Positions 24,595 to 53,041 of a stretch of 64,000 nt of DNA are shown here, piece by piece; position 1 is the first letter of the stretch; the number at the start of each line of letters is the position of its first letter. Location: the NCBI GenBank assembly GCA_003054655.1, contig QAYZ01000014.1, positions 186,001 to 250,000 of the forward strand, in the 5' to 3' direction. The translations under genes and the position numbers were made by a program. The notes under the pieces were generated by a model. That model had not been told where the DNA came from. It did no database searches and worked only from the letters and a program-made list of their open reading frames with translations. Source of the stretch: Spartobacteria bacterium LR76 (GTDB taxonomy: Bacteria > Verrucomicrobiota > Verrucomicrobiia > Chthoniobacterales > Terrimicrobiaceae).

Positions 24595-24625
24595 CCAGGC
24601 TGACAGGGAGAAAAATTGCGGAAAG

Positions 24626-25105: not shown

Positions 25106-25767
25106 CACGGACGATAGACTTTGGCAACGCCGGTCACACCGTCAAGCACCACGACCGCGTTGTTCGGTGACGACCCTTGCGCTCCGGCCAGCCCGATCTC
25201 CATCCACTGCGATACCGATGCGGCGCGAGCCTGGATGCTGGCCATCCCCCGGGGGTCAAACTGTACGATCTTGGAAAACGTGACCCCGGCGACCTCAAAG
25301 GTATCCTGCGCGGCGAAGGCATCGTTCGCCACCTGATAGGCGCTCTGCACCACAGGGCGCGAGAGGCTTCCGGAGTTAGGGATGTTATCCTCGAGGCGGA
25401 CATTGGGCATCTTGCGCATCCGGGTGAGGGAGACGAGATTCTTGCTATCAAAATTGCGCGAGCCGCTCTTGGAGCCCATCGCGCTCATGAGGATCTGGCC
25501 CTCGCCCGGCTTCGTGGCGTCCATCTGGGCGCGTTCGGCGAAGCCGACGTAGACGAAGGTGTTATTAGCCATCGCATAGGCGCGGGCCTGCTCCAGCGTG
25601 CTTGCGATATCGTAGGCTGCCGTGGAGATGTCGCCTGTACTTTTCAGAACATTGAAGGCAGGGACCGACAAGGCCATCATCACACTGACAATCGCCATCA
25701 CTGTCAACAGCTCGATTAAGCTGAAGGCGCTGCCATTCATCGGTTTGAGGTTTTGATGGGAGCTCAT
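25105..25767 (-). CDS. Verru_Chthon cassette protein D (GspH-like pseudopilin), cassette 1
   Basis: 220 residues. Leader NGSAFSLIELLTVMAIVSVMM has Glu5 but Ala rather than Gly at -1 of the cleavage site. The following helix and EQARAYAMANNTFVYVGF match the GspH/FimT pattern (ARAxAxxNNxxV). The C-terminal GVTGVAKVYRP resembles the end of the second D protein (SLTGRTRTFQP). First of the four coupled genes in this cassette; 104 bp separate it from the secreted gene upstream, a gap in which I see no clear promoter. Confidence 0.85.
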   Translation of the reverse strand: MSSHQNLKPMNGSAFSLIELLTVMAIVSVMMALSVPAFNVLKSTGDISTAAYDIASTLEQARAYAMANNTFVYVGFAERAQMDATKPGEGQILMSAMGSKSGSRNFDSKNLVSLTRMRKMPNVRLEDNIPNSGSLSRPVVQSAYQVANDAFAAQDTFEVAGVTFSKIVQFDPRGMASIQARAASVSQWMEIGLAGAQGSSPNNAVVVLDGVTGVAKVYRP

Positions 25768-26963: not shown

Positions 26964-27197
26964 CAACATACGCCTGTTTTGGGGAAAAATCTCGGCTACC
27001 GCGTGCCGGACGAAATCGGAATCGGCTTCCTCAGTCTCCACCCGGAAGAATTCAATTTTTCCGGTGCAATCCAGAACTGCGAAGTCATCGGAGCGACCGC
27101 GGTGGACGTAATGACCGAAGAGATGAACCACAACCACCTCGGCGTGCAAAATTTCCCGAAGCTCGTTTATATCGAGAGCTCATGGCCGTCCGGGAGC
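26964..27197 (+). pseudogene. lacI-family regulator remnant (C-terminal end only)
   Basis: One frame here encodes LGYRVPDEIGIGFLSLHP, then IQNCEVIGATAVDVMTEEMN and FPKLVYIESSWPSGSV. This matches the C-terminal effector-domain end of LacI regulators and aligns with LGYRVPEELGYASLHR in the intact LacI gene of this window. There is no DNA-binding domain, no usable start and no upstream half, so it is a decayed 3' fragment. It occupies most of the 548-bp gap 26820-27367; I see nothing else there. Confidence 0.75.
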
Positions 27198-27367
27198 GTA
27201 ACCCACCCGAGCTGGTCTGGCTGAGCTTAACCCTGCGCCAGACCGCCAGCCGCAGCGCCATCAGCGGGATGCAGGCCGCCACCTGCCAGGCGTATTGACT
27301 TGATCGCTATTGCCCGGCCTTGGGAGCCTCGCAGCGTTGCAGCATCGCCATTCCTTTCACGAATAGT

Positions 27368-27994
27368 TTATGGTTGGAAGGTTCGTGTTCGTCCTGTTAA
27401 GGAGTCGATCTGGATGGTGATAAAGTTGCCGCCCTGGCCCGGAGACGTGTTGTCCGGCGTCAGCGTCACAAACGCGTTGGTGGTGAGGCTGGTGGAACCG
27501 TCGGGTTTGATGAAGAATGCCCGATAGGCGTAGTTCCGGCCATAGCCCGGCACCGAGTAGGAGGTCGCGGGGGTATTGGTCGATACCGATGCGGTGAAGA
27601 GGCTGGAGTAGCTCGCATCGTCCGAGAAAACTATGGGGGCAGGAAAGAAGACCGGCTTGGTGAGCGGAACGGAGTTTGTATCATCCAGCAGGAAACTTTG
27701 CATGGCGCGGTAGGTCTGCGGCGCGGCAGTCGAGGGATCGGCGTGGGCGGGGAGCTTGTAAAAACGGACCTCCACCGGGAGATTCCTGCTCAGGGCGGTT
27801 TGCCGGGCGAGACTCAGATTGTCGACGATGCTGCGGCCGGCGGCGGAGAGCTTGGTGGATTGCAGGACCTGGTTGATGGCTGGCATGGTCACTGAGGCCA
27901 GGATCGCAATGATCGCGATCACCACCAGCAGCTCCACCAGGCTGAAGGCGCAGAAACTCTTGCCTGCTATTGCAGAGTGGGCGGGCGCTTTCAT
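27368..27994 (-). CDS. Verru_Chthon cassette protein D (GspH-like pseudopilin), cassette 2
   Basis: 208 residues. Leader KSFCAFSLVELLVVIAIIAIL with Glu5 and Ala at -1. The segment LARQTALSRNLPVEVRFYKLP is the FimT/GspH-type helix and first strand; the C-terminal QGGNFITIQIDSLTGRT is typical of the family. It overlaps the A gene by 4 bp (ATGA) but is the last gene of this cassette, whereas D is first in cassette 1. No terminator hairpin was identified after it. Confidence 0.85.
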   Translation of the reverse strand: MKAPAHSAIAGKSFCAFSLVELLVVIAIIAILASVTMPAINQVLQSTKLSAAGRSIVDNLSLARQTALSRNLPVEVRFYKLPAHADPSTAAPQTYRAMQSFLLDDTNSVPLTKPVFFPAPIVFSDDASYSSLFTASVSTNTPATSYSVPGYGRNYAYRAFFIKPDGSTSLTTNAFVTLTPDNTSPGQGGNFITIQIDSLTGRTRTFQP

Positions 27995-30900
27995 GGTGCG
28001 AACTGTTTGGCAAGGAGGACGCGATAGCGATAGAAATTACTTATCGGGGTCGTGGTGGCGCTATCCGCATAGTCTGGGATCAAGGTATCGTTGGGATCGA
28101 TGTACCGCTCGATCGTCTGCGCTCCCCGGTATTCTCCGGTCACTTTGTCCCGGGTTTCCGACCAGGTTCCCGGCGCGCTTCCCGGCGCTTTCTTCAGCGA
28201 TTGCACGCGGAAATGGATGGTGAAGGTATTCGACTTGGTCGTGATCCGGGGATAGATCGTTGCGTAGGGCCTTTCCCTCAGGTTGTCGCCGGTGAGGCGC
28301 CGGGTGTTCCAGTAGGTGCTCATCGACGAAAGCGTCGCGCCGCTGGGCACCAGCGGCAACTCGCAGATCTCGGTCGCCGACCGGAAAATATCCTTCGCGT
28401 CGAAGCGCTGCTGAAAACCCTTCAGGGTCTCGTCGATATTGAGATCCTGGCGGAAGGCGGTGCTGGTGATGCCCGCTGCGCCCTTGTACACAGTGGCGTC
28501 GGCATCGCGGACAGAGATCAGCTTTTCCGCTTTCAGCACGGCGCGGATGCCGGTGTCGCGCCGGATATAGTCGAAGGGAAGGATCTGAAAGTTCATATTG
28601 ACCTTTCCCGCCGTGGAAAGCGGCTCGCTGATGGCGTAGGGCTCCACCACCGGCATCTGAAAAAGATCGAGGAGGAGATGGTCTGCCGGCATCCCGGTGA
28701 CGCTGCTGCCGTCGCCTTTTCGGTTTTTCGAACCCGGATGCGTCCCGGCAGGGTCGGGGCGGAAGAGGAGCGTCTGCCAGGGACGATTTGCCAGCACGCC
28801 GGTTGGCAGGGAGCCGAACATGACGGCGGAAGGGATTTGTCGGTTGGGCGAGAATGTGCCGGGATCATTTCGCAAATACCGCAGGTCGTCGTAATATGCC
28901 ACTTTGGTCCCGCTGGAGGTGTCGCCTTCATCAGGTTTATTGATGTAGGGGCCGTCGCGCTGGTTTCCGAAGCCCGTATCCCAGTCGCCCGGGATGTCTC
29001 CGCTGGCAAAGGGGGTTGCTTTTCCCAGAGCCACCCCGGATGAGGAGGGATTGCCCAGGTCCCAGACCTGCCCCTGCATGGCATAGCCGGGGGAGGTTCC
29101 CGAGCTGCCGTACTCGGTTCCTGATACGCCGTAGTAGGATACGTTGACCAGCTTGCCGACCGTCGCTCCGCGATACGGATTTCCCTGTCCCGTCCGGAGA
29201 CTGTGGGCCATGGGTTTACCGGACAGGAGGTAATTCGCATGAGGCGCGAAGAGATTGTCCGCTGCGGTGACCGTGGGCCGTGCAGCGATGAGGCGTATGT
29301 CACCGGGACTCGCCTCCACGCTCCGCACGATGTCTCCATCGACGATCCAGCAGGCTCCCGCAAAGCTGCTCGTGCCGCTCGCGATGCTGGAGTTGATCCG
29401 GTTGTAGAAGGAACGGAAATCCGGCTGGGTGCTATCTGGTACATTATTGGGAGCCAGCCTGGGTGTGGGGAAGCGATTGGCGGCCTGCGTCGCAGCCGGA
29501 AAGTCCAAAGTCAGGGTTTGAACGACCGCACTGGACGCGGCTTCCAGAATCTCGACTGTCACCGAACCTCCCGAAAAGTTGAAGAACTTGTCGGTCGCGG
29601 CCGTGGTCGCATTCGCCGGATCAGGCAGGTCGATGGTCTGGCTGACAAAGGGATACCGATTAGCCCCCGACCACCCTTTCCCATACGCAAGCATGCTATA
29701 TCCCATCGGGCCGCCCACGAAGTTTTCCAGGTTGAAGGCATTTGTCTGCGGCGGGTTAAGCGTCGCGGAAGCTGGGAACCCCATCGGCGACATGGCATCG
29801 TATGGCGTTCCCGCCCATTGAAACCCATCCAGTCCAGTGACCCGGATCTTGAAATACGGGTAGACGCCGACAAATCCGAAGGACGGATCAAACATCTCCA
29901 GAAAGAACGCAGCTTGGACCCGCAGTTTTCCCGCGGGAACGCTGCTGTCAGTGGAATTTGTCGCCGTACCGATGAACTGGAAAAAGGCCTTCGACACGGT
30001 CGGGAAACGTCCAAATCCCCGGGTGTTTGTTGCGGTGTCCACGATGGGAATCACCTGGCCGCCTCCGGATTTCGTACCGGAAAGGGGGCCTGCAAAGGGA
30101 ACGAATGACGAGTCCGTCTTGGTCACCGGATCTCTCAGGTTGATGCACCGGATGTAATCAAAGATCTCGGTAAAGATCTGATCAAAATCACTCCCGTATT
30201 TGCTCTGGAAGTCTCCCCCGAAGCCCGGGATGGGGTGTGACGCGTTGTCCTTGAGATAATCCAGCAGCATGCGATTGCGTCCCAGACCGGAGACCGAGGC
30301 CGTGGGGGGAAGATCGGCTGTGGCGCTGGTCGGATCACTCCTTTGGAAGTAAAACCGAAACGGAGTGTTAAGATCAGTCCGCATTGAGGAGCAGAAGGCA
30401 AAGAGCTGGTCGCGAGCCGTCCTATGGTCGGAGTTTTCATTTGCGCTGACGGGCCAGATGTCCACACGCGGACGATTGAAGAGATTCACCTCGGGCGAAC
30501 GGCTCGTCGTCGTGGCAAAGAACCTGGCCTGTTCGATGACTTGATCGAGTGCATCGGGGGTTGCGGAGCCGGCCACCAGCATGTTCGTGAGCCGCTCTTC
30601 CAGCGACATGCCGGTCGAGAAGAGGAGTTCGTCGACCGTGGCGTAAAGCCTGTTGGGCTCGATCGTGATCGGGGTCGTCGTGGCAACCGTTCCTCCCTTC
30701 GAGCCTCCTCCGGCGACCCGCGGGGTGAACTTATAGATGCTCTCCGCGGCAAGGGTGGAGAAGATCGTGCTGAGCGAGGTCATGGCCGGGTGGCCGGGAT
30801 AGCGCTGAAACTCGTTTTGCACCGCCTGGCACTTTGCCAGCGCATCTCTATCGTACGTCGAGTAAAACCTTGGCATGTCCATGTAGCTGCCCTCCGAGGC

Positions 30901-31677
30901 TGTATTGACGTTTACCTTGCAGCTTTCGTCATCCGTCCAGAAGGCGATGCGCCCGACGATCTGGTTGGTCGCCGAGGCTCCCGCGACGGTTGCTTCGCTG
31001 GAGGTCGATGACGTGGGGGCCGAGATTTTTCCGTTTTCCAGCACATAGAGCCATTTGACAGGCATGGGGACGGGGTTGGCCCCGCTTCCCGCTGCCGTCG
31101 GCGCGGATGTGCTGATCGAGAACCCGCTGATATCGGCCGCCCCGTTGCTGTCGGCGTCGTAAGTCTTGCTCCCGGAGATCGTGGCCAGGTGATTCCCATC
31201 CAGGATCGGGTAGACGACATTGGTGGCGGCTGCTCCAGGGAGCCTGATGGGCTGGTTGAGATCGGTAAAGATCGCCGGCTGCGTGCTCCAGGTGGCGGGT
31301 ATCTTGCTGTCGGTCGCGGAGTAGTCAAAAGCCCCAGGGGTGGTCATCTGGGTCCACGAATACAGCTTGTATGCCAGGACCGGGTTTCCCGCCGTGTCAT
31401 AGGTGCGGATCATGCCCGGTTGCGAGGCCCAGGCGAGGGTATTACCGGATGAGTCGACGCCCTTCGTTGCCTCCGAGATCTGAGCGATGGCGAGGTTTAC
31501 GGCGGTCTGCGAGAGCAGCCTGGCATTTGCCCCCTGCGAGTAGACCTTGGAGGATTGCAGCTCCGTATTGACGCTGGCGAGAAAGGCCAGCGCCAGGGCG
31601 GCGAGCAAGACCAGGCTTGCCAGGACGATGACCAGCGCCATGCCCTGGATCGATGAAGTCCTCCGTCGCATTTTCAT
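27991..31677 (-). CDS. Verru_Chthon cassette protein A (giant GspK/PilX-like pseudopilin), cassette 2
   Basis: 1,228 residues starting at ATG 31677, which overlaps the C stop by 4 bp; an in-frame ATG at 31686 would overlap more. RRRTSSIQGMALVIVLASLV is a GspK/PilX-like leader without Glu5. VNTELQSSKVYSQGANARLLSQTAVNLA follows, comparable with the helix in cassette 1 A. The large exported region contains INLRDP, VEPYAISEPLSTAGKVNMN and a C-terminal YRYRVLLAKQ. In cassette 1 A the corresponding block is LDAAPDDVTVAGRVNLN. Divergent overall, so the two cassettes are old paralogues rather than a recent duplication. Confidence 0.85.
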   Translation of the reverse strand: MKMRRRTSSIQGMALVIVLASLVLLAALALAFLASVNTELQSSKVYSQGANARLLSQTAVNLAIAQISEATKGVDSSGNTLAWASQPGMIRTYDTAGNPVLAYKLYSWTQMTTPGAFDYSATDSKIPATWSTQPAIFTDLNQPIRLPGAAATNVVYPILDGNHLATISGSKTYDADSNGAADISGFSISTSAPTAAGSGANPVPMPVKWLYVLENGKISAPTSSTSSEATVAGASATNQIVGRIAFWTDDESCKVNVNTASEGSYMDMPRFYSTYDRDALAKCQAVQNEFQRYPGHPAMTSLSTIFSTLAAESIYKFTPRVAGGGSKGGTVATTTPITIEPNRLYATVDELLFSTGMSLEERLTNMLVAGSATPDALDQVIEQARFFATTTSRSPEVNLFNRPRVDIWPVSANENSDHRTARDQLFAFCSSMRTDLNTPFRFYFQRSDPTSATADLPPTASVSGLGRNRMLLDYLKDNASHPIPGFGGDFQSKYGSDFDQIFTEIFDYIRCINLRDPVTKTDSSFVPFAGPLSGTKSGGGQVIPIVDTATNTRGFGRFPTVSKAFFQFIGTATNSTDSSVPAGKLRVQAAFFLEMFDPSFGFVGVYPYFKIRVTGLDGFQWAGTPYDAMSPMGFPASATLNPPQTNAFNLENFVGGPMGYSMLAYGKGWSGANRYPFVSQTIDLPDPANATTAATDKFFNFSGGSVTVEILEAASSAVVQTLTLDFPAATQAANRFPTPRLAPNNVPDSTQPDFRSFYNRINSSIASGTSSFAGACWIVDGDIVRSVEASPGDIRLIAARPTVTAADNLFAPHANYLLSGKPMAHSLRTGQGNPYRGATVGKLVNVSYYGVSGTEYGSSGTSPGYAMQGQVWDLGNPSSSGVALGKATPFASGDIPGDWDTGFGNQRDGPYINKPDEGDTSSGTKVAYYDDLRYLRNDPGTFSPNRQIPSAVMFGSLPTGVLANRPWQTLLFRPDPAGTHPGSKNRKGDGSSVTGMPADHLLLDLFQMPVVEPYAISEPLSTAGKVNMNFQILPFDYIRRDTGIRAVLKAEKLISVRDADATVYKGAAGITSTAFRQDLNIDETLKGFQQRFDAKDIFRSATEICELPLVPSGATLSSMSTYWNTRRLTGDNLRERPYATIYPRITTKSNTFTIHFRVQSLKKAPGSAPGTWSETRDKVTGEYRGAQTIERYIDPNDTLIPDYADSATTTPISNFYRYRVLLAKQFAP

Positions 31678-32663
31678 GAGCTCCATTTTGCGTTGCGCAG
31701 GGCGACTGTGGTGCGGAAGATCCGGTACGTGATATGCTTTTCCGCGAGGGAGCCGGCCAGGGTGTCCAGGTCGATCTGGAGGGAGGATGGATTACCGAAG
31801 AGTGAACCCGCAACCAGCGCCGGGGCCGATGAGCCGGTACACCACCGCGCGGCGGATGACTCGTCGATCGCCACCATCACGACCTCTACGAGCGGGGGCA
31901 GTTGATTGCTTGTGGCGGGTTGCGTCCCGCCGGAAGTCGGTGTCCATGATCGGGAGTCGTACTCGTAGTCGGTCGTCAGCTCCCCTCCCTGCGAGGTCCG
32001 GGGGATGATGACCAGGGCGATGACATTGTCGGCGATCTGCCGCACGGGCGGGGCGGGGGAGGCGATCGCGCTGGTAAACCAGCCCGTCCCGGAGCTGCTC
32101 GCATACACCGCGAGATTCTGGCTGGGCTGGAGGAACTCCATGAGGCGAAAGCGATATCTGGCCTTTGGCTGGCTGGGCAGCGAGGCGAGAAAGTCCGGGC
32201 GGGAATCGTCAATGCTATAGGTTACGAAAAAACCGCAGGCGTTCAGGAGCGATTCCAGATTCTGATAAGACTGCGAGCTGGAGTATCCGGCCGGTGTCTG
32301 AAAAAACACCGCCTGCGTCAGTTGTGCGCTGACCAGGGATTTCCCGGAAATGAAATGCAGGTCGGACTTTCGATAATAGCGTTTCGGGTTCTGGTTGCTG
32401 TCGTACTCGTAATCGTAATAGTTGAAAAGCGTCGCTTCGCCGAGAGTCTGGGTGATGGCCTCAAATGCCGCCCGCGCCCGCTGAAAGGTCTCGATCTTTG
32501 AACTGGCGCTCTTCCAGGCGGCGCTGGTCTGCTGCGTGATGCTGAAGATGACTCCAAGAATGATCACGAGGACGGCCGACGCCACGAGCAACTCCACAAT
32601 AGTGAACGCACGGAGATGCGCGTTACCGCCTCTTTCGAGGCGATGGGAGATGGCCTGTTTCAC
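31674..32663 (-). CDS. Verru_Chthon cassette protein C (GspJ-like pseudopilin), cassette 2
   Basis: About 329 residues. The frame is open upstream to 32870, but that part overlaps gene B and encodes low-complexity Arg-rich sequence; the GTG at 32663, 5 nt after the B stop, gives KQAISHRLERGGNAHLRAFTIVELL, a proper prepilin leader (Ala -1, Glu5). The body includes FQRARAAFEAITQTLGEATL and FRLMEFLQPSQNLAVY, and the end HITYRIFRTTVALRNAKW resembles C-terminal strands of family C. Stop overlaps the A start by 4 bp. Confidence 0.85.
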   Translation of the reverse strand: MKQAISHRLERGGNAHLRAFTIVELLVASAVLVIILGVIFSITQQTSAAWKSASSKIETFQRARAAFEAITQTLGEATLFNYYDYEYDSNQNPKRYYRKSDLHFISGKSLVSAQLTQAVFFQTPAGYSSSQSYQNLESLLNACGFFVTYSIDDSRPDFLASLPSQPKARYRFRLMEFLQPSQNLAVYASSSGTGWFTSAIASPAPPVRQIADNVIALVIIPRTSQGGELTTDYEYDSRSWTPTSGGTQPATSNQLPPLVEVVMVAIDESSAARWCTGSSAPALVAGSLFGNPSSLQIDLDTLAGSLAEKHITYRIFRTTVALRNAKWSS

Positions 32664-32668
32664 TGGGG

Positions 32669-33130
32669 TCAGCGGCTCCGGGGAACGATTACGAAATAAG
32701 AGTTGGTCGTTTCCGGATGGGTGGATGAACTGATCTGAATGGGAACCTTCCTCGCGGCCTCCGAGTTTACGAGGTCGCCGGCGTCCAGCGCCTCGGGTGC
32801 AAGGACCCGGGCGGTGTAGAGGCGTTGCTTGTCGGATTCGGCCACCTTGTTGCCTTCCTGATCGAAGCAAATGTTGGTGGACGCGAGATTCGTATAGTCC
32901 GACCGCATGAGCTCACCGCTCACCGCCTGGACGATGGTGGTCTCCACCGTCAGGCTCATCGCTTGTCGGAAAGTGCCGAGACCAACTGGTATCAACCCCA
33001 GGATGCTTAGCATGGCAAACGAAACAATCCCGATGGCGACGACGCTCTCGACGAGTGTGAATGCGGCGGAGCATCGGCGGCTGGACGATCTATCGTGCCG
33101 GGCAGAGATATTCGTGGGGGGGCGAAACAT
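32669..33130 (-). CDS. Verru_Chthon cassette protein B (GspI-like pseudopilin), cassette 2
   Basis: 153 residues. Leader RRCSAAFTLVESVVAIGIVSF with Glu5 and Ala at -1. The body ICFDQEGNKVAESDKQRLYTARVLAP aligns with the LYFTKEGKPIG segment of the first B protein. First gene of cassette 2. Its ATG lies only 24 bp downstream of the GH130 stop at 33155, so it probably shares that gene's transcript rather than having its own promoter. Confidence 0.85.
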   Translation of the reverse strand: MFRPPTNISARHDRSSSRRCSAAFTLVESVVAIGIVSFAMLSILGLIPVGLGTFRQAMSLTVETTIVQAVSGELMRSDYTNLASTNICFDQEGNKVAESDKQRLYTARVLAPEALDAGDLVNSEAARKVPIQISSSTHPETTNSYFVIVPRSR

Positions 33131-33154
33131 CTTTAGGGTAAACGGTGAAACTAA

Positions 33155-34141
33155 TTAGGCGGAAGTCAAGGAATTGCGCTTGATGAAGTCGACGATGTCC
33201 TGAGCCTGGCAGAAGGCCAGTCCCGACACGGTATCTGCCGATCCGTAATAGATCGCGACACGCCCGGTGTCGCCGTCGCAGAGGGCGGCGACAGGGAAGA
33301 CGACGCCCGGCACATAGCCGGTCAGCTCATAAGGAGTCTCCGGCAGGAGAAGGCATTGATTTAGGCGGTAGCGGACCACCCAGGGCTCGTCACGGTCGAG
33401 AATCATCGCGCCCATCGCATAGATGTAGCCGTTGCAGGTGCCTGCGACGCCATGGTAAAACGCGAGCCAGCCTTCATCGGTTTCGATGGGAGCAGGCCCG
33501 GGTCCGATCTTCTTGTCCTCCCACCATTTCCCGGATTTTCCCATGACGTGCCGGTGTCTGCCCCAGTGCACCAGATCGTCGCTTTCGCTGAAGAAGATGT
33601 CTCCAAACGGAGTGTGCCCAGTATCGCTCGGGCGGTTGAGCATGGCGTATTTGCCTCCGATCTTTCGCGGGAAGAAAACCCCGTTGCGGTTGTACGGCAG
33701 CAGCAGGTTATCGAGCTGCTCGTAGCTGCGGAAGTCCTTCGTGCGGGCGAGGCCGATGGTCGGGCCATGGTATCCCATGCACCAGATAACATAGTACCAA
33801 TCCTCCAGCTTAACGACGCGGGGATCGTAGGCGTAGTGAAAGTCGCCTTTCTCAGGATCGCCATTGTGCAGGCGGATTTCTTCCGGCTCGATCGTCCAGT
33901 GGATGCCGTCCTCGCTCCACCCGGTATGCAGGTGCGGCATGCGATCCTTGTAGTCGACCCGAAAGACCCCGGCGAACTTTCCCTCAAAAGGAACCACCGC
34001 ACTATTGTAGCAGCCAGTGGCCTTGGCCAGCGCCCGCCGCCCGATGACCGGGTTGCCAGAGTAGCGCCACACGAGATCAGGGCAGTCGCTGGGGCGGTTT
34101 TCCCAAGGGAGATTCGGAATCGAGGGGCAGAGGAACTTCAT
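33155..34141 (-). CDS. GH130 beta-mannoside phosphorylase (mannooligosaccharide-type)
   Basis: 328 residues from ATG 34141 (a longer in-frame start at 34216 overlaps the putative operator). No signal peptide, cytoplasmic. The GH130 propeller signature WRYSGNPVI and the catalytic Asp in FHYAYDPRVVKLEDWYYV (Asp106) are present, with later KKIGPGPAPIETDEGWLAFYHGV. GH130 enzymes of this length phosphorolyse beta-1,4-mannooligosaccharides or mannosyl-GlcNAc to mannose-1-phosphate. A GAGAG stretch lies about 2-7 nt before the ATG. Flanked by LacI upstream and by pseudopilin cassette 2 downstream on the same strand. Confidence 0.85.
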   Translation of the reverse strand: MKFLCPSIPNLPWENRPSDCPDLVWRYSGNPVIGRRALAKATGCYNSAVVPFEGKFAGVFRVDYKDRMPHLHTGWSEDGIHWTIEPEEIRLHNGDPEKGDFHYAYDPRVVKLEDWYYVIWCMGYHGPTIGLARTKDFRSYEQLDNLLLPYNRNGVFFPRKIGGKYAMLNRPSDTGHTPFGDIFFSESDDLVHWGRHRHVMGKSGKWWEDKKIGPGPAPIETDEGWLAFYHGVAGTCNGYIYAMGAMILDRDEPWVVRYRLNQCLLLPETPYELTGYVPGVVFPVAALCDGDTGRVAIYYGSADTVSGLAFCQAQDIVDFIKRNSLTSA

Positions 34142-34191
34142 ATCTCTCGTAACCTTTGATGCGCCCGACCGCTTTATCCAGTGGCGCGTAG

Positions 34192-34204
34192 GTGGACAGT
34201 CAAC
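34192..34204. promoter_or_regulatory. Putative LacI operator (GTGGAC-A-GTCAAC)
   Basis: A 13-bp near-palindrome with the same half-site as 39626-39638 lies between the lacI stop (34253) and the GH130 start (34141), 51 bp upstream of that start. One base departs from the palindrome. It would place GH130, and possibly cassette 2, under the adjacent regulator. Confidence 0.5.
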
Positions 34205-34252
34205 TGGGGACACCACCGGCTGCGGAGAAGCCTTTAGCCCGACGACGGTCGA

Positions 34253-35362
34253 TCAGGTGGCCGACGCTTTCACCTTCCGGGAAGGCTTGCGAGGACGAGA
34301 ACCCGGGACGATTGCCTTCTTTTCCAGCTTGTTGCAAACGGTCGGGCCTTCCCTCCAGATGCTCTTGATCGAGACCGTCTTTGGATAAGCGGGAAGGCCG
34401 AACTCGTTGTTCTGTAATTGCGAGATGACGAGATCCATCCCGGCCGCTCCGATTTGCTTTGGCTGACGGTCGACACCAGCCCACGGAGCGTCTGCATAAA
34501 GGCGGTGGAGCGAGGCATAGCCGAGTTCTTCCGGGACGCGATAGCCCAGTTCCCTTGCCAGATACAGAGGTTGCTCGGTGTTGCTGAGGATGGCATCCGG
34601 CTTCCATTTCTCCAGCCATCGGGCAAAGAGCTCCTTGTCCCATGGCGTATCCCTCGCGATTCCCGGAACGAGGTAGGGAGGGATGTTGAAATGGGACGGG
34701 GTATGATACTGCCAGGTCAGGAAACCTGAGATCCAGCCGTGGTTGGTTCGTTTCTCGTATATCGCCATGTTTGCGAATGCGATCCGACGATGGCCGAGCT
34801 TTTTCAGGGAATGAAGGGCAAGCTGCATTCCTTCGATATAGTTATGCGTGGCCCGGTGGAGCTCGGGTTTCAGGACGGTCAGGCCCAGCGTGGCGCAGGC
34901 AAAAAGCGGCCAGTTCAGCGTGACGTGACCGACCCCGCGCGGCAAAGGCGCCATGAGCACGCCGCGAATGCCGCGGGCGTAAAGGATCTTGCTGAGACGT
35001 GCTCCGCTTAGTCCCGGCTGCTTGGCCCAGAAGGTCTCGACCTCATAGCCAAAATGGCTGGCGCGCTCGCAGGCGCCGTTGAAGTAGTCCGATTCGTTGA
35101 GATTCTTTTTCCATTCGTCCGGGGTGTTCCAGAAGGTGAGATAGGCGATCTTTTCCACGCCGCGCGCTTTCCGCACGGTGCGCAGTTGGTTCATCAGCGC
35201 GGAAACCACGGGGTCGCGCTGATAGCCGGATTCCTGCGCCAGCCCGATGATCCTGTCCCGGACTGCTGCCGAGATGCGCGGGTGGTTTCGCAGGGCCAGC
35301 GAGACGGTGGTGCGCGACACGCCTGCGATCTTGGCGAGTTCTCGGATCGTGGGGGAGGACAT
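34253..35362 (-). CDS. LacI-family transcriptional regulator
   Basis: 369 residues from ATG 35362; the frame extends upstream to 35434 but the HTH begins right after this ATG (SSPTIRELAKIAGVSRTTVSLALR, then NHPRISAAVRDRI), as usual for the family. The effector domain includes GIRGVLMAPLPRG, KLGHRRIAFANMAIYEKRTNHGW and a C-terminal LGYRVPEELGYASLHRLY, ending in a basic tail (RKPSRKVKAS). Presumably it senses a sugar released by neighbouring GH and GH130 enzymes. Candidate operators are the GTTGAC-N-GTCAAC sites at 34192, 37746, 37787 and 39626. It lies downstream of the GH-A hydrolase gene on the same strand. Confidence 0.9.
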   Translation of the reverse strand: MSSPTIRELAKIAGVSRTTVSLALRNHPRISAAVRDRIIGLAQESGYQRDPVVSALMNQLRTVRKARGVEKIAYLTFWNTPDEWKKNLNESDYFNGACERASHFGYEVETFWAKQPGLSGARLSKILYARGIRGVLMAPLPRGVGHVTLNWPLFACATLGLTVLKPELHRATHNYIEGMQLALHSLKKLGHRRIAFANMAIYEKRTNHGWISGFLTWQYHTPSHFNIPPYLVPGIARDTPWDKELFARWLEKWKPDAILSNTEQPLYLARELGYRVPEELGYASLHRLYADAPWAGVDRQPKQIGAAGMDLVISQLQNNEFGLPAYPKTVSIKSIWREGPTVCNKLEKKAIVPGSRPRKPSRKVKASAT

Positions 35363-35483
35363 GCAGGCTGGGGGATGCGCGACGTTCGCGCTTTCAAAAG
35401 CAAATGTCAGAAGGCGTCGGCAAATCAATCCCAAACTCTGCGAGCGGACCGCCTTCCTTCATTCTCTGCAAACAAGAGTGCGG

Positions 35484-37697
35484 CTAATTCAGCTTCGCCC
35501 GGCCCCAGCCGCCGCGATCACTGGAGTTGCGGGACGAGCCGTTCCACATGAGCTGGCGCCTCCGGGCGAGGCCGTCTTCGCTGTCGTCGACCGCGATATC
35601 AAACAGGATCTCCGCGCCTTTCGACGGTACGATATCGAGCGCTTTCCAGGGAATCGCCGCCTCGATGGTATACCCCTTGGTGGTTACATTATCGGTTACG
35701 GCGATCCTGGTGCCGGCCGGCTGCATGGTTAGCTTCGCAAAGTGAATCGAGGGCTGGACCCCTGCGCCGAGCAAAATCTGCCGGTCGCTGAAGCGAAGCT
35801 CGCCCGCTTCCTCCGGGTCCTCATAGCCGATGAAAAGTTCGACGCCGTCGCCCATCCACAGGCTGCCTGCCGCGCGACCGTTCTGGCGTGGAGTGCGGTC
35901 GTTGACGTCCACCAGGAGATAAAGATAGGTCTCATCCCAGCAAAAGCGGCAGGTGGCGGAGAATGTTTCTTCCACGGGTCCCAATGAGACGTTCTTTGAG
36001 GTAAGGGTTTCCGGTGGGATGCCGGGCCAGCCGCCCGATGCCCCGTCGATCTGGAGTCCTTCGGTTGCCTTGGCCACGGCCATGACCTTCCTGCCGGAAC
36101 CTCCCCGCCCGGTGAACCGGGGATCATCGAACTGAAAGGGGGCGCGCTTGGCGAAGATGATGTCGTAGATCTCGTCATTCGTGATCTTTGCCTCATTCAC
36201 AAACGGCAGGTACGGGCGGTCCGTCACATCAACGAGGCCGATGTTTCCGCCTTCTCCCCGGAACCCTTCGAACCAGCGCCCGGTAATCGCTTGATCGACA
36301 TAGGAAAACCACTGGCTGCCTATGACGAAGGGCAATGCCCCGACAGTCTCGACATAGTTGCGATAAGCGAGGCCCCGCTCCCGCTGGCTGGACACCTCCT
36401 TGCCTCCGGCGAGACCCTGATCCGTACAGGTATAGTGCCACTCGCTCAGCAGCATCGGACGCTCCGAACTCCAGTCATGAATGCGCTGCAAAAAAGAGGT
36501 TTCGATGGCATAGGTGTAGTAGTTGACGCTGATGACATCGACATACTTGGCCGCCGTGCTAACGAGGATCTCGTTGTTGGCCGTCCCGGGCTGCCATCGG
36601 CTGCCGAGCAGGAGATGGTTCTGGTCGTATTTCTTGAACAGCCCGGATACCAGCGCGTAATAGGTATCCGCGAAGAGCGCGTAGAACTCCTTCATGTCGC
36701 CCGCTGCCTCGCGGGTGGAGACCTCCAGCGGAGTGTCGATCATTGCGTCAAAGGAAGGGAGCGGCGTCTTCGTCTGCCATGCGGTGTTGAATCTGGCGAT
36801 ATCCTCCCCGTACTTGGCACGCAGCAACTCAACGAGCCGCCGTTTCGATGCGCTTTTGCCATCGAGCGAAGGGATGACCTTGGGCAGGTTTTCAAACAAC
36901 TGCTCGTTCCCTAAGAAATACCCGATGATCAGAGGATCACTGGCCCGTTCCGGGAGGCGCTTGGCGAAGGCCGCCTCCAGCACTTTCGCCGAGGCGGGAT
37001 CGAAGGGGTCAAACAATCGGTCGATCCCCTTGACGGGCGGCAGCCCCGGGAGGTGGTCCGTGGGCAGCATCAACGTATAGGGAAAGGAGAGTTTTCTCAT
37101 CGCCGCTGTCGGCGTGGTCCACGCTCCGCCGCTGTTGAATCCCCAGGAACGCAGTCTTTTGACGACCTGGGCCGACCACTCCTCCTGGTCAAAGGGTTTG
37201 CCAAACTTGCGGATCCAGTTGACCAGATAATACGACAAAGCTCCCGGGCTGCCTGGCCGCCAGGCGGAGGCAAATTCATCGCCGGGTCTCGGCACGAACT
37301 CAAAGACCTGCTCGCGCCCCTTGACGAGGGTATAGTCATCCAGCGGAGTAAGAGTGCAGACGCCGAGTTGGAAAAAGGCATTGCCCTCGGGGGTCACAAA
37401 TACCCAGCGCCCTGCCGCCTGCTCGACATGGAAATATCCCGTCTTGCGCAGGTTGAGCGACTGCTGGCTTCCCGCCAGACCTCCGTACTGGTCCAGGGAG
37501 GTATTTCCCGGATGCTCCGGCTCTCCGGATTCTTTCACCCCATCAGCGCGCAGCTCTTCCTCCGAGTGAATTTTCCCGGGATACTCCACGCGGTTGCTCT
37601 GTCCGAACCGGTCCACCAGCGGCGTGGCGTCCGGATCGGCCAGGGCTGCGGTGAGGCAGAGGAGGGGGAGGAGTGCCGTCAGGCCGGGGCGAGTCAT
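35484..37697 (-). CDS. Exported clan GH-A glycoside hydrolase with C-terminal CBM9-like domain
   Basis: About 737 residues. ATG 37697 gives the best signal peptide (PGLTALLPLLCLTAALADPD); ATG 37724 and 37757 are upstream alternatives that run toward the operator region. The catalytic part begins GRWVFVTPEGNAFFQLGV, contains GYFLGNEQ (Glu265, candidate acid/base) and MLLSEWHY (Glu419, candidate nucleophile), typical of clan GH-A barrels and resembling GH50/GH42-like enzymes. Residues about 560-737 form a CBM9-like domain (FCWDETYLYLLVDVNDRT, GDGVELFIGYEDPEEAG, YTIEAAIPWKAL). Substrate unknown; agarose-like or beta-galactan is possible by family resemblance. Divergent from the PEP-CTERM gene at 37864, with two operator-like sites between. 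Confidence 0.75.
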   Translation of the reverse strand: MTRPGLTALLPLLCLTAALADPDATPLVDRFGQSNRVEYPGKIHSEEELRADGVKESGEPEHPGNTSLDQYGGLAGSQQSLNLRKTGYFHVEQAAGRWVFVTPEGNAFFQLGVCTLTPLDDYTLVKGREQVFEFVPRPGDEFASAWRPGSPGALSYYLVNWIRKFGKPFDQEEWSAQVVKRLRSWGFNSGGAWTTPTAAMRKLSFPYTLMLPTDHLPGLPPVKGIDRLFDPFDPASAKVLEAAFAKRLPERASDPLIIGYFLGNEQLFENLPKVIPSLDGKSASKRRLVELLRAKYGEDIARFNTAWQTKTPLPSFDAMIDTPLEVSTREAAGDMKEFYALFADTYYALVSGLFKKYDQNHLLLGSRWQPGTANNEILVSTAAKYVDVISVNYYTYAIETSFLQRIHDWSSERPMLLSEWHYTCTDQGLAGGKEVSSQRERGLAYRNYVETVGALPFVIGSQWFSYVDQAITGRWFEGFRGEGGNIGLVDVTDRPYLPFVNEAKITNDEIYDIIFAKRAPFQFDDPRFTGRGGSGRKVMAVAKATEGLQIDGASGGWPGIPPETLTSKNVSLGPVEETFSATCRFCWDETYLYLLVDVNDRTPRQNGRAAGSLWMGDGVELFIGYEDPEEAGELRFSDRQILLGAGVQPSIHFAKLTMQPAGTRIAVTDNVTTKGYTIEAAIPWKALDIVPSKGAEILFDIAVDDSEDGLARRRQLMWNGSSRNSSDRGGWGRAKLN

Positions 37698-37745
37698 AGT
37701 CGCGGTATTATGAATCGTCGGCATCCTAACCCAACGGGCGCAAAG

Positions 37746-37758
37746 ATTGACAGTCAAA
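37746..37758. promoter_or_regulatory. Putative LacI operator (ATTGAC-A-GTCAAA)
   Basis: TTGAC-A-GTCAA is an 11-bp perfect palindrome with odd centre, in the 166-bp divergent gap between the GH-A gene and the beta-strand-repeat gene, 49 bp upstream of the former. Same core as the sites at 34192 and 39626. Confidence 0.55.
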
Positions 37759-37786
37759 CCGGGTGCAATGATCCCCCATTTCTATG

Positions 37787-37799
37787 CGTGACTGTCAAA
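37787..37799. promoter_or_regulatory. Putative LacI operator (CGTGAC-T-GTCAAA)
   Basis: A second copy of the palindrome core (one mismatch, GTGAC-T-GTCAA), centred 41 bp (about four helical turns) from the 37746 site and 65 bp before the + strand gene at 37864. Two spaced sites in one divergent promoter fit LacI-family looping, which is inference. Confidence 0.5.
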
Positions 37800-37863
37800 C
37801 AGCGGGTGCGTTGCGAACTGGCAGTCTCAGCGCATTCTCGATGGAAACCTGCACACGTCGTCC

Positions 37864-39549
37864 ATGAATACCTCACATTCCCCCACTCATTCTTCTCGCC
37901 GGAGCGTCTCCCTCAGGACCTTGTCGGCTCTGTCTGCCTTGGCCGTCAGCTCAGCTTCTGCCGCGACAGTTTACTGGGATCCCAGCGGCACAGGCACCTA
38001 CACCGGGGACGGAACCTGGGACACCACCACGGCGGAATGGCAGGCTGCTGCGACAGGCGGGGGAACGCCGTCGACCTGGAGTAGCGCGAATGTCGCCGGT
38101 TTCGTGCGCGGAACGAGCGGCACAGTGACCGTGGACGGAGCGGGCGTCACGGCGGCAGGAATCACCGTCGGGCCCACGAGTGCGGGTACCTCCGGCGCAG
38201 CAAGCTACACATTCCAAACGGGGGCGCTCACTCTTTCCACAGGCTCCTCAAGCACGGCCATCAGCGTCAGTAATGGATCGTCCGCGACCTTCAACAATGC
38301 GCTCAACTTTTCCGGCGGCAACCAAAAGGTCGTGATTCAATCCGGAGCGAGTTCGCTCACGATAGCTGGGGGCATTCAGAATACGAACGCCAGCGCCGAC
38401 ACTCTGACCCTCAGCAGCTACTCGGCTGCGGGAGTCATCGATATCAGCGGGGCGCTGACGAAAAGCAGCACGTCCAATGTCTTCAACCTCGTAATCGGAG
38501 AGGGTGCTGGCGGCTCTTCTGCCGCGTCGACATTCAAGCTCGGAGGCAATAACACCGGCATTACCTCCTCCAGCACGCTGCGGATCGAGCGCGGTGTCCT
38601 GGTGCTGAACAACTCCGGGGCGCTCGGCACGGCAGCCTCGCTGAGCCTAGGCGGCAACAGCGGTGCGACGGCGGATTCGCAGCAGGTGCTCATCGGCACG
38701 AGCGGAGTCACCATTGCCACTGCCATGACATTGAATAGCGCGGATACCTCGGACACCCGCACCATCGGAAGCAGCATCACCAGCGGCACGGCGACCTTCT
38801 CGGGTATGCTTACGATGGCTGGCACCGGGGTATCTTTGACCTCGGCCTCTGGAGGCACCACTGTCTTCAGCAGCCTCGTCACGGATGGATCGGAGTCTCG
38901 CGCCGTGACCAAGATCGGCGCGGGCATCGTCAGCCTGACCCGGGCGGCGGGCAACACCTACGATGGCGGCACCACGGTGAGCGCCGGCACCCTGCTGGTC
39001 AGCAACACCTCGGGAAGCGGTACGGGCACGGGTGCCGTGAGCGTGACGGCTGGCACCTTTGGCGGTACGGGACAGGTCTCCGGAGCTGTGACCATTGGAA
39101 ACGGCACGGGCGGCAGCGATTCCTTCATCGTCGCCGGAAACGGTTCCATCGGGACATTTACCACGTCGAGTTCGCTGAGCCTCAACTCGGATGCCACATT
39201 CACCTTCGAGCTCAACAGCTCGGCGGCGACCGCGGACAAGCTGGTGGCCAATGGCGTCGTGCTGAATGCCTCCAGCGTATTCGCTTTCTCCGATCTCGGG
39301 GCGTCTGTTCTCACCCTCGGAACAGCGTTCACCATCATTGATAACACATCGGCCTCGGCGATCTCGGGAACTTTCTCGAACCTCACGGAAGGCGAGACCC
39401 TGACCATCGGCTCCAATCAATTCGAAGCCACCTACCTCGGCGGTACGGGTAATGACCTGGTGCTGACCGTTGTCCCTGAGCCTTCCGCCACGCTCCTGCT
39501 TTCCTTCGGGCTTTGCGCGGTGATCTTCCTGCGTCGCCGCGTCAGCTAG
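37864..39549 (+). CDS. Autotransporter-type beta-strand-repeat protein with PEP-CTERM
   Basis: 561 residues. Signal peptide RTLSALSALAVSSASAATVYW. The passenger is Ser/Thr/Gly-rich parallel beta-helix sequence with GNTYDGGTTVSAGTLLVSNTS repeats. The C-terminal block ATADKLVANGVVLNASSVFAF and AFTIIDNTSASAI is nearly the same as in the 15039-17042 protein. It ends VPEPSATLLLSFGLCAVIF, RRRVS, an exosortase-processed anchor. Transcribed divergently from a GH-A hydrolase with two operator-like palindromes in the gap, and followed by a clear terminator. A surface role in adhesion or matrix formation is likely. Confidence 0.8.
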   Translation: MNTSHSPTHSSRRSVSLRTLSALSALAVSSASAATVYWDPSGTGTYTGDGTWDTTTAEWQAAATGGGTPSTWSSANVAGFVRGTSGTVTVDGAGVTAAGITVGPTSAGTSGAASYTFQTGALTLSTGSSSTAISVSNGSSATFNNALNFSGGNQKVVIQSGASSLTIAGGIQNTNASADTLTLSSYSAAGVIDISGALTKSSTSNVFNLVIGEGAGGSSAASTFKLGGNNTGITSSSTLRIERGVLVLNNSGALGTAASLSLGGNSGATADSQQVLIGTSGVTIATAMTLNSADTSDTRTIGSSITSGTATFSGMLTMAGTGVSLTSASGGTTVFSSLVTDGSESRAVTKIGAGIVSLTRAAGNTYDGGTTVSAGTLLVSNTSGSGTGTGAVSVTAGTFGGTGQVSGAVTIGNGTGGSDSFIVAGNGSIGTFTTSSSLSLNSDATFTFELNSSAATADKLVANGVVLNASSVFAFSDLGASVLTLGTAFTIIDNTSASAISGTFSNLTEGETLTIGSNQFEATYLGGTGNDLVLTVVPEPSATLLLSFGLCAVIFLRRRVS

Positions 39550-39570
39550 CATATTCGGATTTCATCCCTA

Positions 39571-39610
39571 AAGCGGTTCTCTCGAACAGGGAGAACCGCT
39601 TTTCCTTTTT
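39571..39610 (+). terminator. Intrinsic terminator
   Basis: AAGCGGTTCTC (39571-39581) pairs perfectly with GAGAACCGCTT (39591-39601) over a 9-nt loop and is followed by TTCCTTTTTT. It lies 22 bp after the stop codon of the beta-strand-repeat gene and is the strongest terminator in the window. Confidence 0.85.
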
Positions 39611-39625
39611 TCAGAACGGCCCCAT

Positions 39626-39638
39626 GTTGACTGTCAAC
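39626..39638. promoter_or_regulatory. Putative LacI operator (GTTGAC-T-GTCAAC)
   Basis: A perfect 6+1+6 palindrome located 16 bp beyond the terminator and 84 bp before the ATG at 39722. It is the best-matching copy of the motif seen at 34192, 37746 and 37787, and probably controls the + strand genes 39722-42344. Confidence 0.6.
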
Positions 39639-39721
39639 TTATCGTTCCCTTGTTTCATGGATCGGGCGGAGGCACCGTGCTCCTGTGCGAACGCGAAATG
39701 CGCAGCACGTTCCCTCACCTC

Positions 39722-40363
39722 ATGAATCGTCTCGTCACCCAACTCTTCGCCCTTGTGGGCGTCATCTCACTCGCGCACGCCCAGGCCCCCGATCCGGAAG
39801 TGTCAGCCACGGAAAAGGGAATAGCCATCAAGGGCGAAGCCGGTTCGTTTCTTCTCGTGCCAGCCGCGCTCCGTCTGACCGAAACGAATTACGAAGGAGA
39901 GAAGCCGGTCCTCGAACTCGCGGGCGACAATACGCTGGTCGCGAAGTTCCCGAGCGGCGCGGAGATTCGGCTGCAGGCCTCCCCGGAGGACAAGGCGATC
40001 GAGGCTTCATTCTCCGGCGTGCCTGCCGGGGCGTGGGCCTTTGTCTTCCAGATGCAGATCCCGATCGACTTTTCGCGCGGAGGCAGGTTCTCCCTGGGGA
40101 CAGCGCCGCTGCAGGACTTCCCTGCCGACTATTCCAAGCAGCTCCTGGAGCAGAAGACAGCGAAGCAGTTCACCCTCGTGAATCCGGCCGGTATCGGACT
40201 GACCCTCGCCGCCACCCAGAACTTCATGCAGGTGCAGGATAACCGCGCCTTCCAATGGCCTGTATTCATGTACATCTATACCTACGTCTTTTCCTCAAAC
40301 CCGGGCGGATCTTCCTTCCGGATTCATGTGGAGTCCCTGGATTCCGCGGCAACCACCCATTAG
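39722..40363 (+). CDS. Small secreted protein of unknown function
   Basis: 213 residues from ATG 39722, chosen because it starts a signal peptide (NRLVTQLFALVGVISLAHAQ); an in-frame ATG at 39650 precedes it. The mature protein is beta-rich (GIAIKGEAGSFLLVPAALRL, GAWAFVFQMQIPIDFSRGGRF, FMYIYTYVFSSNPGGSSFRI) and resembles ligand-binding or polysaccharide-lyase accessory domains without catalytic signature. A perfect copy of the local operator lies upstream, and a GH26-like lipoprotein starts 30 bp downstream, so it is part of the putative LacI regulon. Confidence 0.55.
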   Translation: MNRLVTQLFALVGVISLAHAQAPDPEVSATEKGIAIKGEAGSFLLVPAALRLTETNYEGEKPVLELAGDNTLVAKFPSGAEIRLQASPEDKAIEASFSGVPAGAWAFVFQMQIPIDFSRGGRFSLGTAPLQDFPADYSKQLLEQKTAKQFTLVNPAGIGLTLAATQNFMQVQDNRAFQWPVFMYIYTYVFSSNPGGSSFRIHVESLDSAATTH

Positions 40364-40393
40364 GCCGACTGGCTATCGCTTCCTCTTTTGCAT

Positions 40394-41701
40394 ATGCGTT
40401 TATTGACTAAACTCCTGGTTCTTTCCTGCACCCTGGTACTGGCCTCATGCGAGGTGAAAGTTAAGAACGTCCCTCCTCCAGCGCCTTCGCCGTCTCCCGC
40501 TGCGGAGACTCAGCCGACCCCGAGCGCGAAACCTGCACCTTCAGTAATCCCTGCCGCCACCGCGGTGCCTGCTTCCCCGACTCCGGCGGTAACGACCGTC
40601 CAGCCTTTGCAGAATGTGCCGAACGATAATGCCAAAGCGCCGCACATCGCCGTTTTCAAGGGAAGCGTGGATGGCGTGAAAAAGCCTTATGGCGCGCAGA
40701 ACAACGCCGCCTACGCCGCATGGCTGAACCGTAATGTCGTCTGGGCTGAGGATACGCAGCCTGGCGCTACCTGGGACAATATGACCGGCCAGACCTGGCA
40801 GCTCGCTCCCTGGTCCAACTGGAAGAAGGTGGTGCCCGGGCGCAGGCTCATCCTGAATATCTGCATCATTCCTGGCCCGTGGGACGGAAGCGGACCCCAA
40901 ACCGGGAAGAATGCTGGCATACCAGTCAGCCTGGAGGACGGCGCTGCGGGCAAGTACAACGAGTTTTACAAGAAACTCGCGGAGAACCTCGTGAAATACG
41001 GTCTGGAGGATTCCATCCTCCGCCTGGGCTGCGAGTTCAACGGCGGCTGGTTCGCCTGGAGAGCCCAGTCCGATGCGAAGGCAAAGGCTTTCGCAGGCTA
41101 CTTCCGCGAAATTGTCAAAACCATGCGCTCTGTCCCGGGCGCCGAGGGATTGAAATTCGATTGGAATGTCGGTTTGGGATGGTGTTCCTTTGACCCTGAG
41201 AACGCCTGGCCGGGCGATGAATACGTCGACTTTGTCGGTATTGACACTTACGACGATTGCTATGCTCCCAACACGTATCCTTTTGCGAAAAACGCTTCAG
41301 AGGCGGAGAAGGACCGCATCCGGAAAAAGGTCTGGCACGACCACATCCTGAGCGGCAAGTTTGGCCTGAACTACTGGAGGGACTTTGCCCGGAAACATGG
41401 CAAGCCCATGTCGTTTCCCGAGTGGGGCGTCAACAACAAGCCGGACGGCCACGGCGGAGGAGATAACCCCTATTTCATCGAGCAGATGTATGAGTTCATC
41501 AATAACCCGGAGAATAACGTCGCCTATCATAGCTACTTCGACTATCAGGCGGGAGACGGACATCATCAGCTTTCGCCAACGCGGGATGGCAAGATCGTGA
41601 CGGAGTTCCCCCGGGCCGCCGAGAAGTTCCGGGAACTCTTTAGCCTGCCTCCTGCTTCCGGTCAGGCGGGAGCACCGCCGCAGCCGCTTCCGGTGGACTG
41701 A
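40394..41701 (+). CDS. GH26-like lipoprotein (possible beta-mannanase)
   Basis: 435 residues from ATG 40394. Signal sequence with lipobox LVLASC (lipidated Cys19), then a Pro/Ala-rich linker (about residues 24-70). The catalytic domain has LRLGCEFNGGWFAWRA, which corresponds to the GH26 R-x3-E-M-N-G-x-W-F acid/base motif (Glu214), and SFPEWGVNN (Glu343) as the likely nucleophile. GH26 enzymes are mostly endo-beta-1,4-mannanases, which would feed the GH130 phosphorylases. The motif is diverged (Cys before Glu, Phe instead of Met), so substrate is uncertain. Followed after 139 bp by a CBM-like protein; a weak hairpin (GGCGAGAT/ATCTCGCC, 41758-41786) lies between. Confidence 0.75.
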   Translation: MRLLTKLLVLSCTLVLASCEVKVKNVPPPAPSPSPAAETQPTPSAKPAPSVIPAATAVPASPTPAVTTVQPLQNVPNDNAKAPHIAVFKGSVDGVKKPYGAQNNAAYAAWLNRNVVWAEDTQPGATWDNMTGQTWQLAPWSNWKKVVPGRRLILNICIIPGPWDGSGPQTGKNAGIPVSLEDGAAGKYNEFYKKLAENLVKYGLEDSILRLGCEFNGGWFAWRAQSDAKAKAFAGYFREIVKTMRSVPGAEGLKFDWNVGLGWCSFDPENAWPGDEYVDFVGIDTYDDCYAPNTYPFAKNASEAEKDRIRKKVWHDHILSGKFGLNYWRDFARKHGKPMSFPEWGVNNKPDGHGGGDNPYFIEQMYEFINNPENNVAYHSYFDYQAGDGHHQLSPTRDGKIVTEFPRAAEKFRELFSLPPASGQAGAPPQPLPVD

Positions 41702-53023: not shown

Positions 53024-53041
53024 TTCTCTCCCTTCTTCCCA

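Follow-up and report, generated by a model that had tools for sequence, protein, structure and literature searches.

We read positions 27368-41701 of the window (the whole stretch of 64,000 nucleotides that was analysed), with moderate confidence and from sequence and structural models, as a LacI-controlled locus, probably for beta-mannan, carrying its own secretion tip, in which GH130, B, C, A and D would form one unit. In the proposed mechanism, the LacI-family regulator would bind GTTGACTGTCAAC-type sites ahead of GH130, between the GH50 and PATR genes, and ahead of the GH26 unit, and would repress them as long as it carries no sugar, the inducing sugar probably being a beta-mannooligosaccharide. 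The polymer would be cut outside the cell by secreted enzymes, and the imported oligosaccharide would be phosphorolysed inside by GH130. Meanwhile, B, C, A and D would build a GspI-J-K-H-like pseudopilus tip on a machine whose motor and channel genes would lie elsewhere and be shared; with the tip genes under LacI control and the machine in common, a tip suited to the locus would be made when the sugar is present. We infer this scheme, including co-transcription, LacI binding, the inducer, the use of a shared machine and the cargo, from genes, gap, motif and conservation found in the sequence and from the GspJ fold of C and, more weakly, the GspK fold of A in models.

Gene content and the GH130-B junction

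The source genome (G000; 4.75 Mb in 16 contigs) was compared with two relatives of the same genus, G001 and G002, the latter being Terrimicrobium sacchariphilum. The minus-strand order is GH50-CBM9, LacI, GH130, B, C, A and D, with B and C spaced by 5 bp and A and D overlapping by 4 bp, while on the plus strand, divergent from GH50, a PATR/PEP-CTERM protein gene is followed by a terminator, a secreted 221-aa protein and a GH26-like protein (Table 1). The terminator region (39545-39615) folds at -25.2 kcal/mol (z -4.76), and none of 200 shuffles was as good. In G001 the ten block genes are kept at 79-96% protein identity, and the DNA alignment covers 27366-41701 of the window at 83% identity. 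The best relatives of the LacI protein are 89% identical in G001 and 37% identical in G002, which seems to lack this LacI.

Table 1. Features of the locus, with positions in the window.
Feature	Position	Strand	Evidence or remark
D, Verru_Chthon cassette protein D, GspH-like minor pseudopilin	27368..27994	-	TIGR02596 126.8 bits, cut-off 70
A, Verru_Chthon cassette protein A, enlarged GspK-like tip protein	27991..31641	-	TIGR02600 1012 bits, cut-off 332
C, Verru_Chthon cassette protein C, GspJ-like minor pseudopilin	31674..32663	-	TIGR02599 287 bits, cut-off 256.5
B, Verru_Chthon cassette protein B	32669..33130	-	TIGR02598 73.2 bits, cut-off 51.4
GH130-B gap	33131..33154	-	24 bp
GH130 phosphorylase	33155..34141	-	PF04041 226 bits, cut-off 26; no obvious signal peptide
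O1, operator-like site GTTGACTGTCCAC ahead of GH130	34192..34204	-	identical in G001
LacI-family regulator	34253..35362	-	PF00356 44.3 bits, PF13377 38.9 bits, both above cut-off
Secreted GH50-like enzyme with CBM9	35484..37724	-	beta-agarases (4bq2 etc.) E 8.5e-53; PF06452
O2, GTTTGACTGTCAATC, divergent GH50/PATR promoter region	37745..37759	-	
O3, GCGTGACTGTCAAAC, divergent GH50/PATR promoter region	37786..37800	+	
PATR-repeat protein with PEP-CTERM end	37864..39549	+	PF12951, PF07589
Strong intrinsic terminator after PATR gene	39570..39611	+	fold
O4, perfect palindrome GTTGACTGTCAAC ahead of GH26 unit	39626..39638	+	
Secreted 221-aa protein	39698..40363	+	no Pfam match
GH26-like protein, lipoprotein-like leader	40388..41701	+	PF02156 42.3 bits, cut-off 20.2 (scanned from 40607)

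The GH130 gene likely starts at ATG 34141 rather than at GTG 34216. The nearest solved relatives of its product are TM1225, UHGB_MP and a beta-1,4-mannooligosaccharide phosphorylase, and the GH26-like protein matches the mannan endo-1,4-beta-mannosidase 4yn5 (E 1.3e-6). With GH130 and GH26 together in the block, the substrate is probably beta-mannan; the agarase likeness of the GH50-like enzyme has no obvious fit with mannan. Against the beta-1,2-mannobiose phosphorylase models, the GH130 protein falls below the equivalog cut-offs of NF050092 (178.3 against 550 bits) and NF052550 (148.5 against 450 bits). Elsewhere in the window, a GH94 gene adjoins a second, distant GH130 gene as a phosphorylase-type pair (50630-54283, plus strand), and an 81-aa open frame with a partial LacI profile match (26979-27224, plus strand; 72.7 bits), just past D at the edge of the G001-shared block, is likely a LacI remnant.

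The preliminary description had given a distance of 24 bp, on one strand and free of hairpins, between the GH130 stop (33155) and the start of B (33130). These coordinates are correct, both genes being on the minus strand and B beginning with ATG, and the RNA of 33120-33170 is predicted to stay unfolded (-0.2 kcal/mol; an equal or better fold in 196 of 200 shuffles). A consensus scan found neither a terminator-like nor a sigma70-like site in the gap, although it has little power here because a sigma70-like site is also missing ahead of GH130; over 12.5 kb it returned one promoter-like site against 3.3 expected from shuffles. Conservation of gene order, proposed earlier as a check, was found in the same-genus relative G001, where LacI-GH130-B-C-A-D is intact and the GH130-B gap likewise measures 24 bp. 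In loci of the genus, counting neighbours of 100 aa or more and excluding within-cassette pairs, gaps of 0-50 bp separate 112 same-strand, 35 convergent and 3 divergent pairs. From the sequence, GH130-B-C-A-D is likely a single transcript.

Candidate operator motif

The operator-like palindrome reported earlier ahead of GH130 had no coordinates, and the likeliest site is O1, which lies one mismatch from TTGACTGTCAA. Taken alone it is unremarkable, since when the LacI-GH130 gap was shuffled 500 times, 96% of the shuffles held a palindrome equal to or better than its best; what gives it weight is that it is one copy of the GTTGACTGTCAAC motif, present at four intergenic sites around LacI, all of them conserved in G001. 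The core TTGAC[TA]GTC recurs at O2, O3 and O4, and O1 is the least perfect of the four sites except for O3. Moreover, the LacI-GH130 gap is poorly conserved between G000 and G001 save for the short blocks GTTGACTGTCCACCT, CACTGGATAAA and GGGCGCATCAAAGGT.

Within the window, TTGACTGTC occurs three times against 0.27 expected, a count that none of 100 shuffles reached; the 15-mer GTTTGACTGTCAAAC, allowing up to three mismatches, gave four rows (two places) against 0.89 expected, with 3 of 100 shuffles reaching four. Throughout G000 there are only two exact copies of TTGACTGTCAA, at C9:223747 and 225627, both within the LacI cluster; G001 has two in the same two places, and G002 has none. With at most one mismatch, 18 distinct places were found in G000 and 25 in G001, all four sites being included in both, and the 24 places in G002 are about the level of the reversed pattern (rows for pattern versus reversed pattern: 21 vs 9 in G000, 28 vs 20 in G001 and 25 vs 23 in G002). 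The confinement of exact copies to this cluster, in the two genomes that have a close version of this LacI, is the strongest support for the proposed operator. No copy was found ahead of the LacI gene itself, nor in L059, a diverged LacI-GH26-GH130-cassette cluster elsewhere in G000 (LacI 49% and GH130 56% identical).

The cassette proteins and their genomic repertoire

B, C, A and D are adjacent, and each scores above the curated cut-off of its NCBIfam Verru_Chthon cassette family. D has additional, weaker matches to GspH/XpsH models, A has an alternative start at 31686, and B may be considered GspI-like by position. The N-termini are prepilin-like, with Glu at +5 in B (FTLVE), C (FTIVE) and D (FSLVE), and no such Glu in A; GspK is not known to carry a +5 Glu, unlike H, I and J. 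In its model (pLDDT 89.9), C has the GspJ fold, with EpsJ, GspJ and XcpW matched at Z 10.6-12.3 and unrelated rows at about 4, and with a GspJ-type match in Foldseek (E 4.3e-6). For A (pLDDT 81.4), the top VIA match was GspK (3ci0_K; Z 8.7, rmsd 3.7, next row 4.5), with 240 of 280 residues aligned, spread across A 29-1182; Foldseek alone gave nothing under E 0.001, GspK standing at rank 11 (E 0.58). Reading A as an enlarged GspK is therefore a weaker proposal than reading C as GspJ. Sequence profiles against solved structures returned nothing for A, weak type IV pilin matches for C and unrelated matches for B. From the models, B-C-A-D is predicted to be a pseudopilus tip, and many cassettes of the genus are ordered D-B-C-A, which corresponds to H-I-J-K if these assignments hold. 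Furthermore, A contains a variable, strand-rich insert (about residues 541-885), where mean pairwise identity across 47 proteins is 25%, compared with 42% in the part preceding it and 48% in the part following it. Structural matches of this insert are weak (Z 3.8 or less).

G000 encodes 11 A proteins that score above the cut-off of TIGR02600 (12 rows, of which two share a frame) and nine weaker ones, and a further cassette was located by its B gene (L119), giving 21 cassettes, 11 typical and 10 divergent; counts for the relatives may be low, as the first-look candidates scored were 14 of 38 in G001 and 14 of 33 in G002. At 19044-25767 (minus strand) the window contains a divergent cassette in the order D-B-C-A, after which comes a secreted 234-aa protein. 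Secretion genes of G000 comprise eight PF00437 matches, of which five span most of the model and three a part of it, and five secretins, and all PF00437 and PF00263 (secretin) places are elsewhere than this cluster. At C11:583577-586439, two tandem GspE-family ATPase genes lie 3 kb from a cassette; the others lie apart.

A LacI gene lies within 5 kb of 7 of the 11 typical G000 cassettes against 1.55 expected (p = 0.00015, circular shifts), and other radii agree (four at 3 kb, p = 0.021; eight at 10 kb, p = 0.00065). G002 behaves likewise (8/13 within 5 kb against 1.69 expected, p = 0.00025). Divergent G000 cassettes have no such link (2/10 against 1.73 expected, with cassette ends partly estimated by hand). 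When the neighbourhood is defined as three genes upstream and two downstream, the LacI profile, which also catches AraC-type regulators sharing the sensor domain, is matched at 7/11 cassettes in G000, 6/13 in G001, 10/13 in G002 and 11/72 outside the genus. All 11 typical G000 cassettes have a carbohydrate-related gene among their five neighbours, namely GH130 and GH28; GH3 and GH26; an SASA esterase; lyxose isomerase and a sugar-type MFS; a rhamnosidase; GH106 and alginate lyase; GH16, GH1 and GH130; a heparinase; a polysaccharide lyase; an acetyl xylan esterase; and, at this locus, GH130. This is no test, because the genome is sugar-rich, and the 99 genes of 20 random G000 loci also include GH97, LacI and AraC genes. 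Counting the 25 commonest families (of 116 and 173, respectively), the 97 cassette neighbours and the 99 random genes of G000 contain LacI 7 vs 3, Peripla_BP_3 9 vs 6, AraC 4 vs 4 and PEP-CTERM 5 vs 3. At L064:17986-19770 (minus strand), a glycoside hydrolase family 1 domain is fused to an AraC-type DNA-binding domain, joining an enzyme-like sensor with a regulator domain.

GH130 lies within 5 kb of 3/11 typical cassettes in G000 (p = 0.002); as a general cassette partner it was rejected, only 1/13 having it in G002 (p = 0.32). Its presence in the five-gene neighbourhood is 3/11 in G000, 2/13 in G001, 1/13 in G002 and 2/72 outside the genus. The UBA695 locus L151 has LacI-GH130-D-B-C-A on a distant branch of the A tree, on which the GH130 label requires five changes, at least three of them on well-supported branches, so that the pairing has arisen more than once or been patchily kept.

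As for the earlier interpretation that the tip genes are wired to a sugar regulator, the part that sequence can address gained from the tight conserved gap, the absent terminator and the conserved motif tied to the LacI cluster, as well as from the order kept in a second species and the proximity of typical cassettes to LacI in two genomes. It lost in that the palindrome by itself is insignificant, typical cassettes are not generally attached to a catabolic gene, and GH130 is no general partner. The interpretation is thus partly supported, and well so as far as sequence and models reach.

Known systems and alternative readings

The locus shares with the Verru_Chthon cassette (TIGR02596, TIGR02598, TIGR02599, TIGR02600) all four proteins, above curated cut-offs. 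Those families were named by co-occurrence and carry no assigned function, and this locus adds the LacI-linked motif, the attached GH130 and the GspJ/GspK-like folds; the name "Verru_Chthon cassette" was not found in the literature searched. Compared with the GspHIJK tip of type II secretion, the C fold (GspJ), the prepilin-like motifs, the frequent D-B-C-A order and, more tentatively, the A fold (GspK) are alike, whereas the cassette carries neither a GspE-family ATPase nor a secretin, A is far larger than GspK, and there are 21 sets in this one genome. As in a Sus-type polysaccharide utilisation locus, regulator, surface protein and enzymes are clustered, but here a pseudopilin tip set stands instead of SusC/SusD, for which no Pfam match was found among the block genes (the GH26 gene being scanned from 40607).

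The nearest published case, according to the accessible part of the report, is that of Verruconatronum alginivorum, likewise a member of the Verrucomicrobiota with a sugar-linked pseudopilin (PMC13274419). Over-expression on alginate was seen there for 17 genes, of which 14 belong to two alginate clusters and the other three include a pseudopilin; one of the clusters contains a pulG-like pseudopilin with 67 homologues in the genome (PMC13274419). It differs in being a single pulG-like pseudopilin rather than a four-gene tip set, and the word LacI is absent from the accessible text (PMC13274419). Consequently, a sugar-linked pseudopilin in the phylum was already known; this locus contributes the motif, the set of four tip genes and the folds resembling GspJ and GspK. 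In Vibrio parahaemolyticus, growth on chitin needs type II secretion, and gspH and gspJ were not required, according to the part of the paper available, so that minor pseudopilins need not matter (PMC11906056). A need for type II secretion in growth on a polymer would be common to both cases, but that species has one ordinary gsp operon (PMC11906056).

In a broader and more tentative proposal, a few secretion machines of Terrimicrobium would be served by a library of interchangeable tips, many of them wired to glycan sensors, with the insert of A picking cargo or glycan. Such a tip-swapping type II secretion system would act as a polysaccharide-utilisation module, sugar sensing swapping the tip. 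A secretion system usually has a single set of minor pseudopilins, and the choice of cargo by the tip is unsettled; 21 natural tip sets, a fair share of them beside sugar regulators, would make that choice testable. It would also assign a function to four families known from co-occurrence, and would suggest how Verrucomicrobiota, which degrade plant polymers in soil, organise polymer use with no SusC/SusD in the locus. The arrangement hints that, in these bacteria, every sugar used as food may have a secretion tip made to match it.

Regarding regulation, the cassette could have its own promoter in the end of GH130 or in the gap, with the closeness of GH130 reflecting packing and the cassette standing outside the LacI unit. 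We hold this to be unlikely, although most typical G000 cassettes (6/11) have a wider gap or a divergent neighbour upstream, are not behind a close same-strand gene and so are probably transcribed on their own, and GH130 is near a single G002 cassette. In about 5/11 a same-strand gene ends within roughly 150 bp upstream, with gaps of 24 (GH130-B), 80, 95 and 106 bp and that of L059 (303 as called; 143 in the G001 copy); the gene caller often starts B too late (195 for the GH130-B gap, 303 for L059), so that some upstream gaps are overstated. Against a separate promoter here, the 24-bp gap and the gene order are conserved, and no motif copy lies in the GH130-B gap. Still less probable is that TTGACTGTC serves several promoters as a -35 element or is bound by a different regulator. 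TTGACT is near the sigma70 -35 consensus, the sites stand tens of bp ahead of likely start codons, and LacI has no copy ahead of it; but the right half, GTCAA, is also conserved, and exact copies, unlike a -35 box, are confined to this cluster in G000 and G001 and absent in G002, which has no close LacI relative. Control of the GH130-B-C-A-D unit by this LacI thus stays our preferred reading.

Regarding function, the tips might belong to a glycan-binding pilus for adhesion or uptake instead of enzyme secretion, a possibility to which we give some, clearly minor, weight. In its favour, the tip is where the variable insert of A would be placed, and a Thermus type-IV-like pilin is among the solved GspJ-like structures matching C (Z 11.9). 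Against it, the fold of C and, more weakly, that of A suggest the type II secretion proteins GspJ and GspK, which normally remain in the periplasm. We regard as doubtful that the cargo is the neighbouring PATR/PEP-CTERM surface protein and not enzymes. One such gene is present in this block, several Verrucomicrobiales A-B-C-D cassettes lie directly behind giant PATR or PEP-CTERM genes, and a PEP-CTERM-like gene is among the five neighbours of 24/75 cassettes outside the genus, whereas within the genus there is no enrichment (3/11 typical cassettes in G000 and 3/13 in G002, against 4/20 random G000 loci). PEP-CTERM was first seen in Verrucomicrobium spinosum, in a paper whose available text does not contain the word "cassette" (PMC1569441). 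At six loci (L177, L179, L192, L200, L204 and L215), A-B-C-D lies directly downstream of large proteins with PEP-CTERM-like ends; four of these six proteins were scanned with Pfam, one being without PATR repeats and three having them.
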